From positions 1 through 64,000 of the forward strand of contig CAUJIH010000047.1 of the NCBI GenBank assembly GCA_963205275.1: 64,000 bases of DNA, in the 5' to 3' direction. The notes under the pieces were generated by a model. The model was given only the letters and a program-made list of their open reading frames with translations, was not told the origin of the DNA and searched no databases. The stretch is from Verrucomicrobiota bacterium (GTDB lineage: Bacteria; Verrucomicrobiota; Verrucomicrobiia; Verrucomicrobiales; DEV007). A program made the position numbers and the translations under genes. Below are positions 4,281 to 9,242 of this stretch, one piece after another (position 1 is the stretch's first letter; each line of letters opens with the position of its first letter).

Positions 4281-5480
4281 TCAGGGCACGTTTTCACTCT
4301 GGATATCAAGGTGTCTGTAGACGCTGAGAGTAGAATCGCCGCTGAGATCGTGATAGGCGACTACATCTGGCAATTTCATGATGACCCACGGAGAGAATAC
4401 ATCGGCCCCGTTTTTCGTGTAAACGAGATCGTCGGCGATGTGAATGCATCCATGAATGATCTTCGCTCCCGAGGTGATCAGAATCATGTCTCCGAATTGA
4501 AGAGGGGGAAGTGAAGGCTGAAACTCACTGGCAAGTAATTCCGTCATTTCAGGAGAATCAGCGTACACATTTTTGGGAACGAATCGAAAGAAGTTATAGC
4601 AGGTCCAAAACCAGTCGGGATATCGCCCTGATATCCCATCCCCCGGATCGGGGAAACGATTGAGCGATTGGCGAGCGGTCGCAGGAAGGAGATGAGCGAT
4701 ATCAATTGCCCCGTCTTCTCGCGCCTCCAGGATTGATCTCAGAATCGGGAAAACCGCCTTGTATTTGTAGCTGGCAGACCAGTAATTGACCAAACTCTCA
4801 GACATGGATTCACGATCAAAGCGCAAGCGGACCATTAAGCCCTGTCGCCGATAAATTCCCTTCAGAATCGTTTTCTCATCAGAGGAGGAAAGTGTTCGCC
4901 GCAAGAGTAACGGTATGTCGGAGAAAAAGAAGCCGTGATCCTTAGGAGTGCGGTAGGCGAGAATCGATACATCCTCAATCGCTGCCCTAGGCATCCCGCT
5001 ACCGGCAAACCACGCGGAGAGATTTTCAGAGTCGATATAGACTGGTCGGGCTTGGAATCGGTTCCCAGGAAAAGTCGAAAGCAGGTGATAAAGAAGCATC
5101 CGCGAAGCGTGAGGAAGCGAAAGGACAGTCTCGTCCGTGGGAAACACACGCGTATTCTCCAGCGATTTAATGATGGAGGAACCTTTCACGATGCGATCAA
5201 TCTCTGCCGGATCGAGCCCCCCCTCCAGCATCGAGCTTCGGACCGTCGGTTCTCCACCTACGGGAAAATCCCACTCTGCTCGTTGGGAAGGAACGGATAG
5301 CAGGCGCAGATATTCTTCCGGAGCTTCCAGCGGAACACGATAATATTCCATCACGCCCCACGGTCCGGCTGGAGTGCGTATCACATCGCGTCCAGAAAGC
5401 GATTGGGCCAACGAGAAGTCCGGGGAAAGCCCGAGTAACAACACGGCGAAGTGCAAAGCTCCGATTAGTCGGGAGTTCAT
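4281..5480 (-). CDS. Secreted NlpC/P60-like protein, catalytic Cys replaced (paralog A)
   Basis: A 399-residue secreted protein of unknown role, with signal peptide MNSRLIGALHFAVLLLGLSP and following residues. Its C-terminal 120 residues resemble a papain-like NlpC/P60 domain and align with the upstream gene: PDWFWTCYNFF, FGDMILI, then IIHGCIHIADDLVYTKNG. At the place of the nucleophile the upstream paralog has Cys (DCFW) but this one has W290; a cysteine, C294, sits four residues later. H343 matches the candidate catalytic histidine. The ATG at 5480 begins one base after the stop of the upstream gene, so translation is probably coupled. It may be an inactive or altered enzyme. The fold assignment is inference. 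Confidence 0.6.
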   Translation of the reverse strand: MNSRLIGALHFAVLLLGLSPDFSLAQSLSGRDVIRTPAGPWGVMEYYRVPLEAPEEYLRLLSVPSQRAEWDFPVGGEPTVRSSMLEGGLDPAEIDRIVKGSSIIKSLENTRVFPTDETVLSLPHASRMLLYHLLSTFPGNRFQARPVYIDSENLSAWFAGSGMPRAAIEDVSILAYRTPKDHGFFFSDIPLLLRRTLSSSDEKTILKGIYRRQGLMVRLRFDRESMSESLVNYWSASYKYKAVFPILRSILEAREDGAIDIAHLLPATARQSLNRFPDPGDGISGRYPDWFWTCYNFFRFVPKNVYADSPEMTELLASEFQPSLPPLQFGDMILITSGAKIIHGCIHIADDLVYTKNGADVFSPWVIMKLPDVVAYHDLSGDSTLSVYRHLDIQSENVP

Positions 5481-5481
5481 C

Positions 5482-6726
5482 TTATTCGGAGATTTTATGA
5501 CGATAAATCCGGTCCACATGCTCAGTTTCATCCAGATAAACGGAGAGCATGTCAGATTTTTCCGTCAGAACAAAGGGTCGAGCAAAGCTGGTACCGTTCT
5601 TGGTAAAAACAATATCCCCTGCAATATGAACATAAGCGTGTAAAAACGAATTATCGTCCTTTTTGAACATGCAAACGATATCTCCAAATTCTGGCGGTCC
5701 GCTGACTTCCTGAAACTCTCCTTCTAGGTGCTGCACACAAGCTGTCGAATCGATTAATCGAGGAGAAGCTTTACGCTGAAAGAACTGAAGTGCAGCCCAA
5801 AAGCAGTCCGGTGTATTAAACGGACCGACGTCACTGAGGCTCGTATATCCATAAAGATACCGCCGAGGCACTGATGGCAGGATCTGGACCAGATCGAGTC
5901 GAGTAACGCCTGAAGTAGCGGCCACTCCCCGAATGAAGGAATCAATTTCCTTGTTTCGTCCTTGGGCCGACCAGTAAGAAATGATGCTGTTCAGATCAGA
6001 AGTCTCATCTAGGATCAGATTTACGAATAGTCCGCGAGTCGCCAATGCTGCACGGATAAAACGCTTCTTTTCATTCTGATCTGCGATCTTGTTCAGGATA
6101 TACGCTCGATCCATGATGCTGAGCACATTATTTCGCCGAAAGGCTACTTGTTTCACCAACGCCATCGTTTCTGGAGCGACGCTTGCCGACTCAAAAGCGC
6201 CGAAATCCCCGCCCTCCAAATTGATCACAGATTTTGCGAAAAAAGTTGGATTATTGAGCCTGAGCCAGTGCGCCAAAGCAGATCGATCTTCTGGACGCAT
6301 ACTCTCGACGATAGCATCCGTAATCGTGAGTTCCAGCCCCCGGGGACTTATATCCCATTTCCCTTCGCGATCAATGAGAGCGAGAGTTTCGGGTAAAATG
6401 CCCAAGCTGCTGAGCAAGGACTGGATCACGGAAATCTCCCGAGGTCCAAAATTCCAATAAGATCTCTCCTCATATAGGGCTGCCCATAGATGCGATTCTG
6501 GCGGCTCCAAGGTGACGGGATAGTATTCCAGTGTGCCATAAGGTCCGGAGATGCGACGGGCCTTATTCTCTGACGCAACAATGGGAGTCGGAGCCTCATC
6601 GGAAGAAATCGCTGCGCATGGAGCCTCTGATACAAAAACAGCCAGCGCCAAAATCAGCAAAAAGAATCTTTCGCTGGAACAAAAGACTGTAAAAAACCCT
6701 CGGAAGAGAAAGGGCTGAGTGAGCAT
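5482..6726 (-). CDS. Secreted NlpC/P60-like protein (paralog B)
   Basis: A 414-residue protein with an N-terminal hydrophobic segment near residues 20-38 that probably acts as signal peptide or anchor. The N-terminal region (GPYGTLEYYPVTLEPPE) matches paralog A (GPWGVMEYYRVPLEAPE), showing tandem duplication. The C-terminal part has PDCFWAALQFF with C308, FGDIVCM, and HAYVHIAGDIVFTKNG with H363. This arrangement of Cys, Gly-Asp and His recalls the NlpC/P60 cysteine peptidases and amidases that act on peptidoglycan peptides. It ends one base before the start of paralog A. No named family is claimed; activity is inferred from residue spacing only. Confidence 0.6.
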   Translation of the reverse strand: MLTQPFLFRGFFTVFCSSERFFLLILALAVFVSEAPCAAISSDEAPTPIVASENKARRISGPYGTLEYYPVTLEPPESHLWAALYEERSYWNFGPREISVIQSLLSSLGILPETLALIDREGKWDISPRGLELTITDAIVESMRPEDRSALAHWLRLNNPTFFAKSVINLEGGDFGAFESASVAPETMALVKQVAFRRNNVLSIMDRAYILNKIADQNEKKRFIRAALATRGLFVNLILDETSDLNSIISYWSAQGRNKEIDSFIRGVAATSGVTRLDLVQILPSVPRRYLYGYTSLSDVGPFNTPDCFWAALQFFQRKASPRLIDSTACVQHLEGEFQEVSGPPEFGDIVCMFKKDDNSFLHAYVHIAGDIVFTKNGTSFARPFVLTEKSDMLSVYLDETEHVDRIYRHKISE

Positions 6727-6955
6727 AATTCAGTGTGAGTGGAGAACTTCGTCTGCGTGTTATACAAATCAAGCGGAGCAATGGACCAGACGGATTCGCG
6801 TATTTGCTGATTTCTGTCGCTATCCGACGCGGAATTTTGTTCTTTCACCTCATAAGTAGTGAATGATCTCGATAAATTTTTATCGTGAGGTTTTCCAATG
6901 TAAGGACAGAATTCCAGATCTTTATAACATCATATTTATTAACAATCAGGCATTT

Positions 6956-7393
6956 CTCATCGTGGGTTGCCCTCGCGAAATCAAGAGTCAGGAAAACCGC
7001 GTCGGTCTGACCCCCTCTGGAGTCAGACAGCTTACAGGTCGAGGCGTGCAAGTCATCGTGCAATCGAGTGCAGGGATTGGTGCCGCGTTTTCTGACGAGG
7101 AGTATCTGTCCGCCGGAGCGACGACTCATGCTGATCCAGTGTTTATCGAGGAAGGCGTCGTCCACTGCTGCGTGGACAATATGCCCGGAGTCTATGCCAG
7201 GACGTCCACTCAGGCTCTCACCAATGTCACCATTCGCTATGTGGAGCGATTGGCTACGCTCGGACTGTCCACGGCCTGTGAGTACGTCCCTGAACTGAGC
7301 GGCGGAATCAATGTCCATGAGGGACAAATTACCTGTCGAGAAGTGGCCGAGGCTCACGGGCTGCCTTGGAAGGCCGTGAGCGAAGTCGCGTAA
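6956..7393 (+). pseudogene. ald: Alanine dehydrogenase remnant with in-frame internal deletion
   Basis: The frame joins the N-terminus of alanine dehydrogenase (IVGCPREIKSQENRVGLTPS and about 35 more residues) directly to its C-terminus (THADPVFIEEGVVHCCVDNM to the end). About 230 codons are missing, including the whole NAD-binding Rossmann domain of this roughly 370-residue enzyme. The join is in frame after YLSAGA, so the frame stays open. The expected start codon position reads CTC; only GTG at 6962 could start. Without the cofactor domain the product cannot make pyruvate from alanine. The remaining sequence is well conserved, so the deletion looks recent. Confidence 0.85.
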
Positions 7394-7416: not shown

Positions 7417-8325
7417 CTACTCGATGATCAGATACTGCGACATCGCGGTGGCGACATCCATGCCCCCGCGGAGGAGCGTGTTCCCCTCAAACAGGGCGGA
7501 GGGATCGATCCCCTCTGCACCTTCCCAGTCCCGCTCGTCAATCTGACCGCTCTGCCCATAAACAAGGAGAGGATTGCGATACGTCACCTGTTCGACAAGA
7601 TCTAGCGCGATCCCGCGCTCTTTCATGAGCGCCGCAGTTTTGGGAACGGCTAGGGCATCGCTGATTCCCCAGTCCGCTGCACTGTCCACGATGATGCGCT
7701 CTGCCCCGTATTCCCGCAGGATCTCCACCATGCGTTCGGTCCCGAGTTTCGTATGTGGATAGATGGTGAAAGCAGTCCAGTAACCTCGGTCGAGCACCAT
7801 TTTCACCGTTTCTTCGTTATTGTGGTCAATCACGACCATGGAAGGATCGACTCCGGCATCTTCCAGCACATCCATGGTCCGAATGGTGCCTTTTTTCTTA
7901 TCCCGGTGTGGAGTGTGAATCTGGATGGGGAGATTGGCTTCGACCGCAATCCGAGCCTGAAGACGCAAATATTTCTCCTCAGCCGCCGTCTGGTCATCGA
8001 AACCGATCTCGCCAATTCCGACGACACCTTCTTTGCAGACGTATAGGGGAAGAAGTTCCATCACCGCATCAGCGAGTTTCACATGATTCGCCTCCTTCGG
8101 ATTCAGACCGATGGTGCAGTAGTGCCGAATGCCGAACTGGCTAGCGCGGAAGCGTTCGAAGCCTATCAGGGTGTTGAAATAGTCTTTGAACGTGCCAACC
8201 TCCGTTCGTGGCTGTCCCTGCCAGAAGCTGGGTTCGATGATGGCCGCGACTCCTGCAGCAGCCATGCGCTGGTAGTCGTCAGTGGTGCGTGACACCATGT
8301 GGACGTGAGAATCGAGAAATTTCAT
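7417..8325 (-). CDS. eboB: EboB-like TatD-family metal-dependent hydrolase
   Basis: A 302-residue TIM-barrel amidohydrolase of the TatD type. Metal-binding candidates are H7 and H9 (DSHVHM), E106 (GIGEIGFD), H137 and H140 (IHTPH), H168 (IDHNN) and D214 (VDSAADWG). The frame opens upstream at 8406, but the ATG at 8325 begins exactly with the family motif and overlaps the eboA stop as ATGA, so it was chosen. Immediate linkage to eboA identifies it as the TatD-like member of ebo clusters, which in cyanobacteria and Bacteroidetes help export precursors of secondary metabolites to the periplasm. The other ebo genes are not in this window, so its role here is open. Confidence 0.82.
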   Translation of the reverse strand: MKFLDSHVHMVSRTTDDYQRMAAAGVAAIIEPSFWQGQPRTEVGTFKDYFNTLIGFERFRASQFGIRHYCTIGLNPKEANHVKLADAVMELLPLYVCKEGVVGIGEIGFDDQTAAEEKYLRLQARIAVEANLPIQIHTPHRDKKKGTIRTMDVLEDAGVDPSMVVIDHNNEETVKMVLDRGYWTAFTIYPHTKLGTERMVEILREYGAERIIVDSAADWGISDALAVPKTAALMKERGIALDLVEQVTYRNPLLVYGQSGQIDERDWEGAEGIDPSALFEGNTLLRGGMDVATAMSQYLIIE

Positions 8326-9242
8326 GATCGCTTCACAGATTGGGAGGGAGTGGGAGAGCCATTGAGCACGACGAGGGGCGTGATCGCCTCGCCTAGCGTT
8401 TGCCAAGAAAGTTTTTCATCAGCGACGGCGGCGATTTCTTCCTTCAGAGTTTCGCGCAAATCTTCGGGAATCAAAGAGTTCGAATCTTCCGCGAGAACGA
8501 GCGCCGCCGCCTGACGATCATGACTTTCTCCCGTATTCAGCAGATGACGAAGGTCCTTCGCGATTCCGTCATCGATAAAGCCGATGCAGTTTCTCCAAGC
8601 CTCAGAAGAGAGCTTTCGCCCCGCTGCCCAGCGCTCGTGCGCCAGTTCCGATATGGCAAGGGCGAGTGCGGGGTTTCGCCTCTGCTCAAGGTTATAGATA
8701 TGATAGATCGGACGCGACAGAAAGAGAGCCTTCAGCACCATCTGATTCCACGACGCCTCCGAGAAATGGGCCGCTGGGAAGGGATTATTCAGCGCGATGG
8801 AGTCGAACACATCGACGATGTTTGATCGCAAGCCCTCGATGATGGTATCGCGCAAATGATCGGGCCAGGGAAGCAGTGGACTGGCCGAGTAGATCGCCAC
8901 CCGCTCGCGAACGTCGGCGGTATCGAGCACGGCGAAAAGAGTAGTCAAGCAGGTTTCTTGATCCTGTTCTGCCAAAGTGAGTAGCAGGATCACGCGGGCC
9001 AGCCGGAAGAGATCCCAACCGCGAATGCTAAACCCCGGAACTTTTCCACTAGCATCTACCTTCTCCGCCAGATCATCAGGGATGCGATCATGCTTCGGAA
9101 AATGTCGAGACACACCGCTGAAGGCGAAATAAAAGGCGTTCCTCTGAAAGTGGGCCTCCTGTTCCGCGATCCGCTCTCGGAGCCAGTCAAACGCGGCGGG
9201 GGGAGAAGAGGCTTTCAGGACATCAAGTAGCTGATCTCGCAT
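8322..9242 (-). CDS. eboA: EboA domain-containing protein
   Basis: A 306-residue, mostly helical cytoplasmic protein that matches the EboA family: NAFYFAFSGVSRHF near residues 36-49, RGWDLFRLARVILLL near 74-88, NPFPAAHFSEASWNQMVLKA in the middle and AHERWAAGRKLS later. EboA has no known enzymatic activity; it always accompanies ebo genes involved in moving natural-product precursors to the periplasm. The stop codon overlaps the eboB start (ATGA at 8322-8325), indicating translational coupling. It is divergent from the solute-binding protein gene, with 81 bp between the starts. Family assignment is from memory of conserved motifs. Confidence 0.8.
   Translation of the reverse strand: MRDQLLDVLKASSPPAAFDWLRERIAEQEAHFQRNAFYFAFSGVSRHFPKHDRIPDDLAEKVDASGKVPGFSIRGWDLFRLARVILLLTLAEQDQETCLTTLFAVLDTADVRERVAIYSASPLLPWPDHLRDTIIEGLRSNIVDVFDSIALNNPFPAAHFSEASWNQMVLKALFLSRPIYHIYNLEQRRNPALALAISELAHERWAAGRKLSSEAWRNCIGFIDDGIAKDLRHLLNTGESHDRQAAALVLAEDSNSLIPEDLRETLKEEIAAVADEKLSWQTLGEAITPLVVLNGSPTPSQSVKRS

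Follow-up and report, generated by a model that had tools for sequence, protein, structure and literature searches.

A predicted NlpC/P60-type hydrolase and a paralogue without its catalytic residues are kept as a pair in Verrucomicrobiota

Introduction

Wall hydrolases endanger their owner. Within the window, as we call the whole 64,000-nucleotide stretch of a Verrucomicrobiota genome analysed here, two homologous genes lie in tandem; the upstream copy (gene B) appears to encode an exported hydrolase of the NlpC/P60 type, and the downstream copy (gene A) has a tryptophan in place of the likely nucleophile. What would a bacterium keep such a copy for, and is the arrangement kept in its relatives? 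Below, copies with both the Cys and the His of the putative site are called intact or live, and those without the Cys are called dead.

Results

A tandem pair of homologous genes

The first-pass annotation, made from the sequence, had read Cys308 and His363 in B, a tryptophan (Trp290) at the cysteine position of A with a cysteine (Cys294) four residues further on, and one base between the genes; the codons and the spacer base are indeed found so (Table 1). A longer frame for A, up to position 5531, is possible but would overlap B. The two proteins are homologous along most of their length (26% identity over 368 columns, E 3e-35) and are the only two family members detected in the genome of the window. 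Both have hydrophobic, signal-peptide-like N termini, as do most of their relatives (judged by eye). A retains His343 plus the K-N-G that follows it. Besides the Cys, it has a second loss, absent from the earlier annotation, in that the position of B Tyr397, a residue invariant in intact copies, is occupied by His377.

Table 1. Coordinates of the features described in the text, in the window unless another locus is given
Feature	Coordinates	Strand	Length	Remarks
Gene B, upstream copy	5482-6726	-	414 aa	Predicted exported NlpC/P60-like protein; Cys308, His363 and Tyr397 intact
Gene A, downstream copy	4281-5480	-	399 aa from ATG at 5480	Trp290, His343, His377
Spacer base, stop of B to ATG of A	5481-5481	-	1 nt
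NlpC/P60-like C-terminal domain of B	5482-5880	-		Residues ~283-414; structural matches ~240-414
Same C-terminal domain of A	4281-4688	-		Residues ~265-399; structural matches ~222-399
Cys308 codon of B	5803-5805	-		Predicted nucleophile
His363 codon of B	5638-5640	-		Predicted base
Tyr397 codon of B	5536-5538	-		Invariant in intact copies
Trp290 codon of A	4611-4613	-		Nucleophile position
Cys294 codon of A	4599-4601	-		Four residues past Trp290
His343 codon of A	4452-4454	-		Aligns with His363 of B
His377 codon of A	4350-4352	-		Aligns with Tyr397 of B
Live-dead single-frame fusions, both orders	Loci L240, L241, L250

Near the pair, a frame at 6863-7393 (+, 176 aa) matches both ends of the NCBIfam model for alanine dehydrogenase, with the middle missing. 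In relatives, the alanine dehydrogenase frame is far longer and lies upstream of the pair (for example, L156:3455-4657); the frame in the window may be a remnant or an assembly fault. The region 7417-9242 (-) holds a gene for an EboA-family protein, matching NF035937 below the cut-off (E 6e-57) and the EboA domain model above it, and an adjoining gene for a TatD-like hydrolase; both recur in relatives near pairs in which Trp replaces the Cys.

Distribution of the family

With B as the sole query, matches were obtained in 20 of 194 genomes sampled from the phylum, the weakest of them (G042, E 9.9e-4) in an apparently unrelated frame. A profile, A1, matched 103 of 239 genomes sampled from the order, 34 of the 74 genomes of the taxonomic family of the window and 34 of 150 sampled from the family of genome G091. 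Among named genomes, 321 relatives were identified; in the best 79 loci, which were those examined, titles are nearly all from Verrucomicrobiota (for example, Akkermansiaceae, Prosthecobacter and Brevifollis) and the nearest locus is from UBA2367 (L150), with 60% identity to A. The named set and the other sets share genomes (such as L150/L097), so their counts are not additive. A single-protein scan of the genome contigs gave no match. Lone intact copies were also seen in MAGs titled Candidatus Kuenenia stuttgartiensis (L169) and Akkermansia muciniphila (L178), labels that look doubtful. Brevifollis gellanilyticus, a cultured relative, likewise carries a lone intact copy (L210).

Gene order and junctions of live and dead copies

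We scored 155 domain hits, from loci some of which overlap: Cys and His are both present in 119, the Cys is missing from 33, and three are fragments. The survey of the window's family covered 60 loci and 100 members, of which three, downstream fragments truncated at contig ends, were left unscored. Each of the 31 Cys-less copies, which stem from 25 genomes, lies directly downstream of an intact copy, and all 23 lone copies are intact. The Cys is replaced by Trp in 14 dead copies, Ser in 12, Gly in four and His in one. The first-pass annotation had proposed a survey of homologues for the same asymmetry, which recurs in these 25 genomes; as the Cys is lost at the same gene position in relatives, the loss is not a chance reading. 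Both copies are intact in four two-gene arrays, whose domain-to-domain gaps measure 244-340 bases, as compared with 78-192 in live-dead pairs. Longer arrays also occur, one of four genes alternating as intact/Gly/intact/Ser (L095:867-5721 and L166:867-5715) and one of three genes in the order intact/intact/Gly (L138:3040-6612).

The named set (best 79 loci of 321 relatives) together with the window contains 82 Cys/His copies and 25 Cys-less copies (Trp 16, Ser 6, Gly 3), each of the latter after an intact copy. No Cys-less copy without a live neighbour was seen among the surveyed copies of either family or of the named set. Of these 25 live-to-dead junctions, again drawn from the window and the best 79 of 321, 10 have the start codon closest to the upstream stop at +1 and eight have it at -4; in 24 it lies between -4 and +14, the exception being L161 (+36), and alternative starts are possible in several loci. 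This spacing resembles translational coupling, and the A-B operon is probably coupled.

At least one of the window's neighbour genes recurs at 12 of the 15 named Trp-type loci and at none of the eight Ser- or Gly-type loci (best 79 of 321); the latter have different genes around them, so the pair persists in more than one genomic context. At nine loci, all of them pair loci, a lipoprotein-like frame lies 55-225 bases downstream of the last domain of the pair (for example, L155:7147-8214, +). It was discarded as a core operon partner, having no Pfam match and no counterpart in the window.

Split genes and fusions in a second family

A live-dead pair was present in five of the loci fetched from the family of G091. 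Two of these (G091 and G425) have separate genes with the dead copy first and then the live one; in G075 (885 aa) and G419 (918 aa) the two domains form a single open frame in dead-live order, and in G521 (821 aa) a single open frame in live-dead order, the lengths being counted from stop to stop. Since G091, G425 and G521 are of one genus, split and fused forms coexist within a genus. In the five dead domains, Phe (two), Ile (two) or Asn (one) replaces the Cys and Tyr (four) or Phe (one) replaces the His. A lone copy in G506 lies in two overlapping frames (L243:2858-4170, -), from a frameshift or a sequencing error.

Conservation of active-site residues

We aligned 128 members, comprising 92 intact copies and, respectively, 31 and five dead copies from the families of the window and of G091, with members shorter than about 300 residues excluded. 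Cys308, His363, Tyr397, Asn377 and Gly378 are present in 100% of the 92 intact copies. Tyr397, found in 92/92 intact copies, is kept in only 3/36 of the Cys-less ones; likewise, for the named set alone (best 79 of 321, window not counted), the Tyr occurs in 81/81 intact and 0/24 Cys-less copies. The dead copies of the window's family keep the His in 30/31, Lys376 in 31/31, Asn377 in 28/31 and Tyr397 in 3/31, and those of G091's family have lost Cys, His, Asn377 and Tyr397 altogether. Conversely, the off-site residues Trp91, Trp252, Pro284, Gly348-Asp349 and Arg409 are kept in live and dead copies, so that two dead lineages have lost the same positions of the site but not the scaffold. From this pattern, Tyr397 is probably an active-site residue.

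The first-pass annotation had also raised the possibility that Cys294 of A reaches the active site. The corresponding position, four residues after the nucleophile (+4), is Cys in 13 of the 14 Trp copies and is occupied in the 92 intact copies by Ala (43), Ser (41), Thr (5) or Cys (3). A Cys there is thus not special to dead copies, and the free variation of the position in intact copies argues against the suggestion; we reject Cys294 as a displaced nucleophile.

Fold and superfamily of the C-terminal domains

Neither protein has a match in Pfam, PHROGs, PADLOC or PDB sequences; a defence system was discarded for lack of a PADLOC match. NCBIfam gave no credible match to A or B, with one sub-threshold hit to A (E 0.17), and a profile built from 28 members retrieved nothing credible from PDB. 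The PF00877 (NLPC_P60) profile matched neither A nor B at E <= 1 and matched two of the 28 members weakly (best E 0.011); because its cut-off is not reached, we file the pair under the superfamily and not under PF00877.

AlphaFold2 models of the full-length proteins, from alignments of 76 sequences for B and 69 for A, reached mean pLDDT 86.5 and pTM 0.83 (B) and 90.6 and 0.88 (A). In the model of B, Cys308 begins a helix (308-313) and His363 lies within a strand (361-369); in that of A, Trp290 begins the equivalent helix (290-295) and His343 lies within strand 340-349. Foldseek returned no match to either model at E <= 0.001, and its top rows, from libraries that include a viral one, are mixed yet rich in NlpC/P60 proteins. 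In a second structural comparison, NlpC/P60 structures dominate the lists over the C-terminal domains of both proteins, the best matches being 8xup_E for B (Z 6.6, rmsd 4.8, 121 aligned) and 7v6u_A for A (Z 7.1, rmsd 3.9, 116 aligned); all Z values here are below 8, a range that, by the tool's own warning, may reflect a mere common arrangement.

The NlpC/P60-like cluster (papain-like cluster II) is characterized, in the excerpt of PMC10318531, by a GD at beta-strand 1 and an Arg on beta-strand 5. In our alignment, Gly348 and Asp349 occur in 98% and 100%, respectively, of the 92 intact copies and both in 31/31 and 5/5 of the dead ones, Arg409 occurs in 99% of intact copies and in 30/31 and 4/5 of the dead ones, and these positions agree with the strands of the B model. 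The Cys at a helix start followed by the His in a strand, both invariant in the 92 intact copies, is likewise found in that model, and when profiles were compared against 11 PF00877 proteins from the order, the alignment, although weak, was in register at the GD and the His. These observations assign the C-terminal domains of A and B, moderately but consistently, to the NlpC/P60 superfamily. The structure prediction that the first-pass annotation had proposed for these domains therefore places their fold in that superfamily, with moderate scores; its label of NlpC/P60-like stands at this level, by fold, GD and Arg, Cys helix and His strand, and does not reach significance by sequence.

Phylogeny and selection

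A quick tree was built from 127 members, with the trait column kept in and 23 of the 27 order-mates L033-L059 left out (from 150 to 127 rows). On this tree the live/dead label requires three changes for both families together, and in the window's family the upstream copies group apart from the downstream ones. A single clade of all 31 dead copies of the window's family was not rejected (p-AU 0.344), and they may go back to one or two loss events. As few loss events lie behind many related pairs, the counts given above are not independent.

Synonymous sites were saturated in at least one gene in five of the genome pairs compared. In the other two, measurable in both genes, A gave dN/dS values of 0.110 and 0.088, and B gave 0.103 and 0.076; these ratios are rough because dS exceeds 1 even in the closest pairs. 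Purifying selection acts on the dead copies as it does on the live ones.

Discussion

Our results suggest that the dead copy works as a partner of the live one and is no relic, the pairing being kept, and sometimes fused, in many relatives. The first-pass annotation had seen in the active enzyme and its altered homologue a heteromer or a regulator-enzyme pair, and a conserved functional pair is borne out by gene order, junctions, purifying selection and single-frame fusions. We favour, as the probable reading, an exported NlpC/P60-type cysteine hydrolase and a catalytically dead paralogue encoded in a tightly spaced, probably coupled operon, with B needing A. B would be a cysteine hydrolase acting through Cys308 and His363, close to which Tyr397 and the T-K-N-G strand would lie, and its most likely targets would be peptide or amide bonds in peptidoglycan, beyond the inner membrane; its superfamily and apparent export are the two grounds for this substrate. 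A would be dead and retained because B needs it, the two most likely forming a heteromer in which A positions the substrate or keeps B in a working state, much as a prozyme does. The likeliest role of A would be to complete, activate or aim B, and an inhibitory role is possible within the same pair. Because the dead copies are conserved, lie tightly after the live ones and are joined to them in either order, a heteromer of fixed stoichiometry fits best, and we infer that the pair most likely takes the form of a physical heteromer. We offer only tentatively the further proposal of an obligate heteromeric hydrolase, whose active and dead subunits arose at least twice in a phylum-wide family and whose catalysis depends on the prozyme-like partner.

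A might instead bind peptidoglycan on its own through a kept cleft, taking part in the same process as B without contacting it. Mycobacterial RipD, a non-catalytic peptidoglycan-binding NlpC/P60 protein according to the excerpt of PMC12067865, is among the structural matches of A (Z 6.1), and the His, Lys and Asn kept in dead copies of the window's family look like a cleft still in use. We nevertheless consider a lone binder rather unlikely, since the surveyed sets held dead copies beside live ones only and the fusion of live and dead domains in one frame argues against it; moreover, the dead domains of G091's family have neither the His nor the Asn, which means that something other than an intact cleft is retained there. 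It is more doubtful still that B is a superfamily member of other chemistry (amidase, acyl or lipid transfer), with A as its partner and no wall hydrolase involved. Permuted lipid amidases and acyltransferases do stand beside peptidoglycan hydrolases in the superfamily, as the same excerpt of PMC10318531 has it, and the D-C-[FH]-W motif differs here from the D-C-S-G of classical members, but the closest structures are peptidoglycan endopeptidases such as MepS, CwlO, RipA and SagA, and the unpermuted order, Cys before His, points the same way.

That A is catalytic by other means, whether by the Ser that some lineages have at the Cys position (12/31 of the dead copies in the window's family) or by a residue that has moved, Cys294 for example, which the frequent +4 Cys of Trp copies favours, seems very improbable, given that the same lineages also have Trp, Gly or His at the Cys position, with one copy lacking the His, that Tyr397 is gone in 33/36 Cys-less copies and that the +4 position is freely Ala, Ser, Thr or Cys in intact ones. 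Almost no weight attaches to A being a decaying duplicate or an assembly fault, even though the genome is a draft (109 contigs, 96.47% complete) and a neighbouring gene appears broken: A is a full-length open frame, and both the recurrence of the asymmetry in 25 genomes and a dN/dS of about 0.1 in relatives refute this reading.

The hydrolase and dead paralogue that we favour share with the PF00877 endopeptidases (MepS/Spr, CwlO, RipA and SagA) the C-terminal fold, the Cys helix and His strand, and the GD and Arg, but add a long N-terminal part of ~240 residues and carry Thr/Ser-Lys-Asn around the position of the third catalytic residue, in addition to the different Cys motif. RipD likewise has an NlpC/P60 domain without catalytic residues and matches both A and B in structure; its gene stands alone in varying contexts, in the account excerpted from PMC12067865, whereas every A-type copy surveyed either adjoins an intact paralogue or is fused with one. 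The mycobacterial ripA-ripB genes are, in the same account, a pair of NlpC/P60 paralogues that arose by duplication and share an operon, but RipA and RipB both have the catalytic residues, unlike A. With a paralogue without catalytic residues kept beside an active one, the pair belongs to the enzyme-pseudoenzyme kind, which is already known. Dead paralogues activate the active enzyme in hetero-oligomers in the case of trypanosome AdoMetDC, with its prozyme (PMC5201418, as excerpted), and of DHS (PMC3663545, likewise); these systems have other folds and organisms, and complex formation and activation were measured there, whereas they would apply to A and B by analogy. In the open-access texts searched, we found no description of this pair.

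The comparison of live and dead copies flagged Tyr397 without guessing from structure, and a large family that no Pfam or NCBIfam model covers gains a first functional hypothesis. As lone, intact-intact, live-dead operon and fused forms occur as a series in one phylum, the passage from a lone enzyme to one with a dead partner is directly testable, and the pair bears on the question of how bacteria restrain their wall hydrolases.
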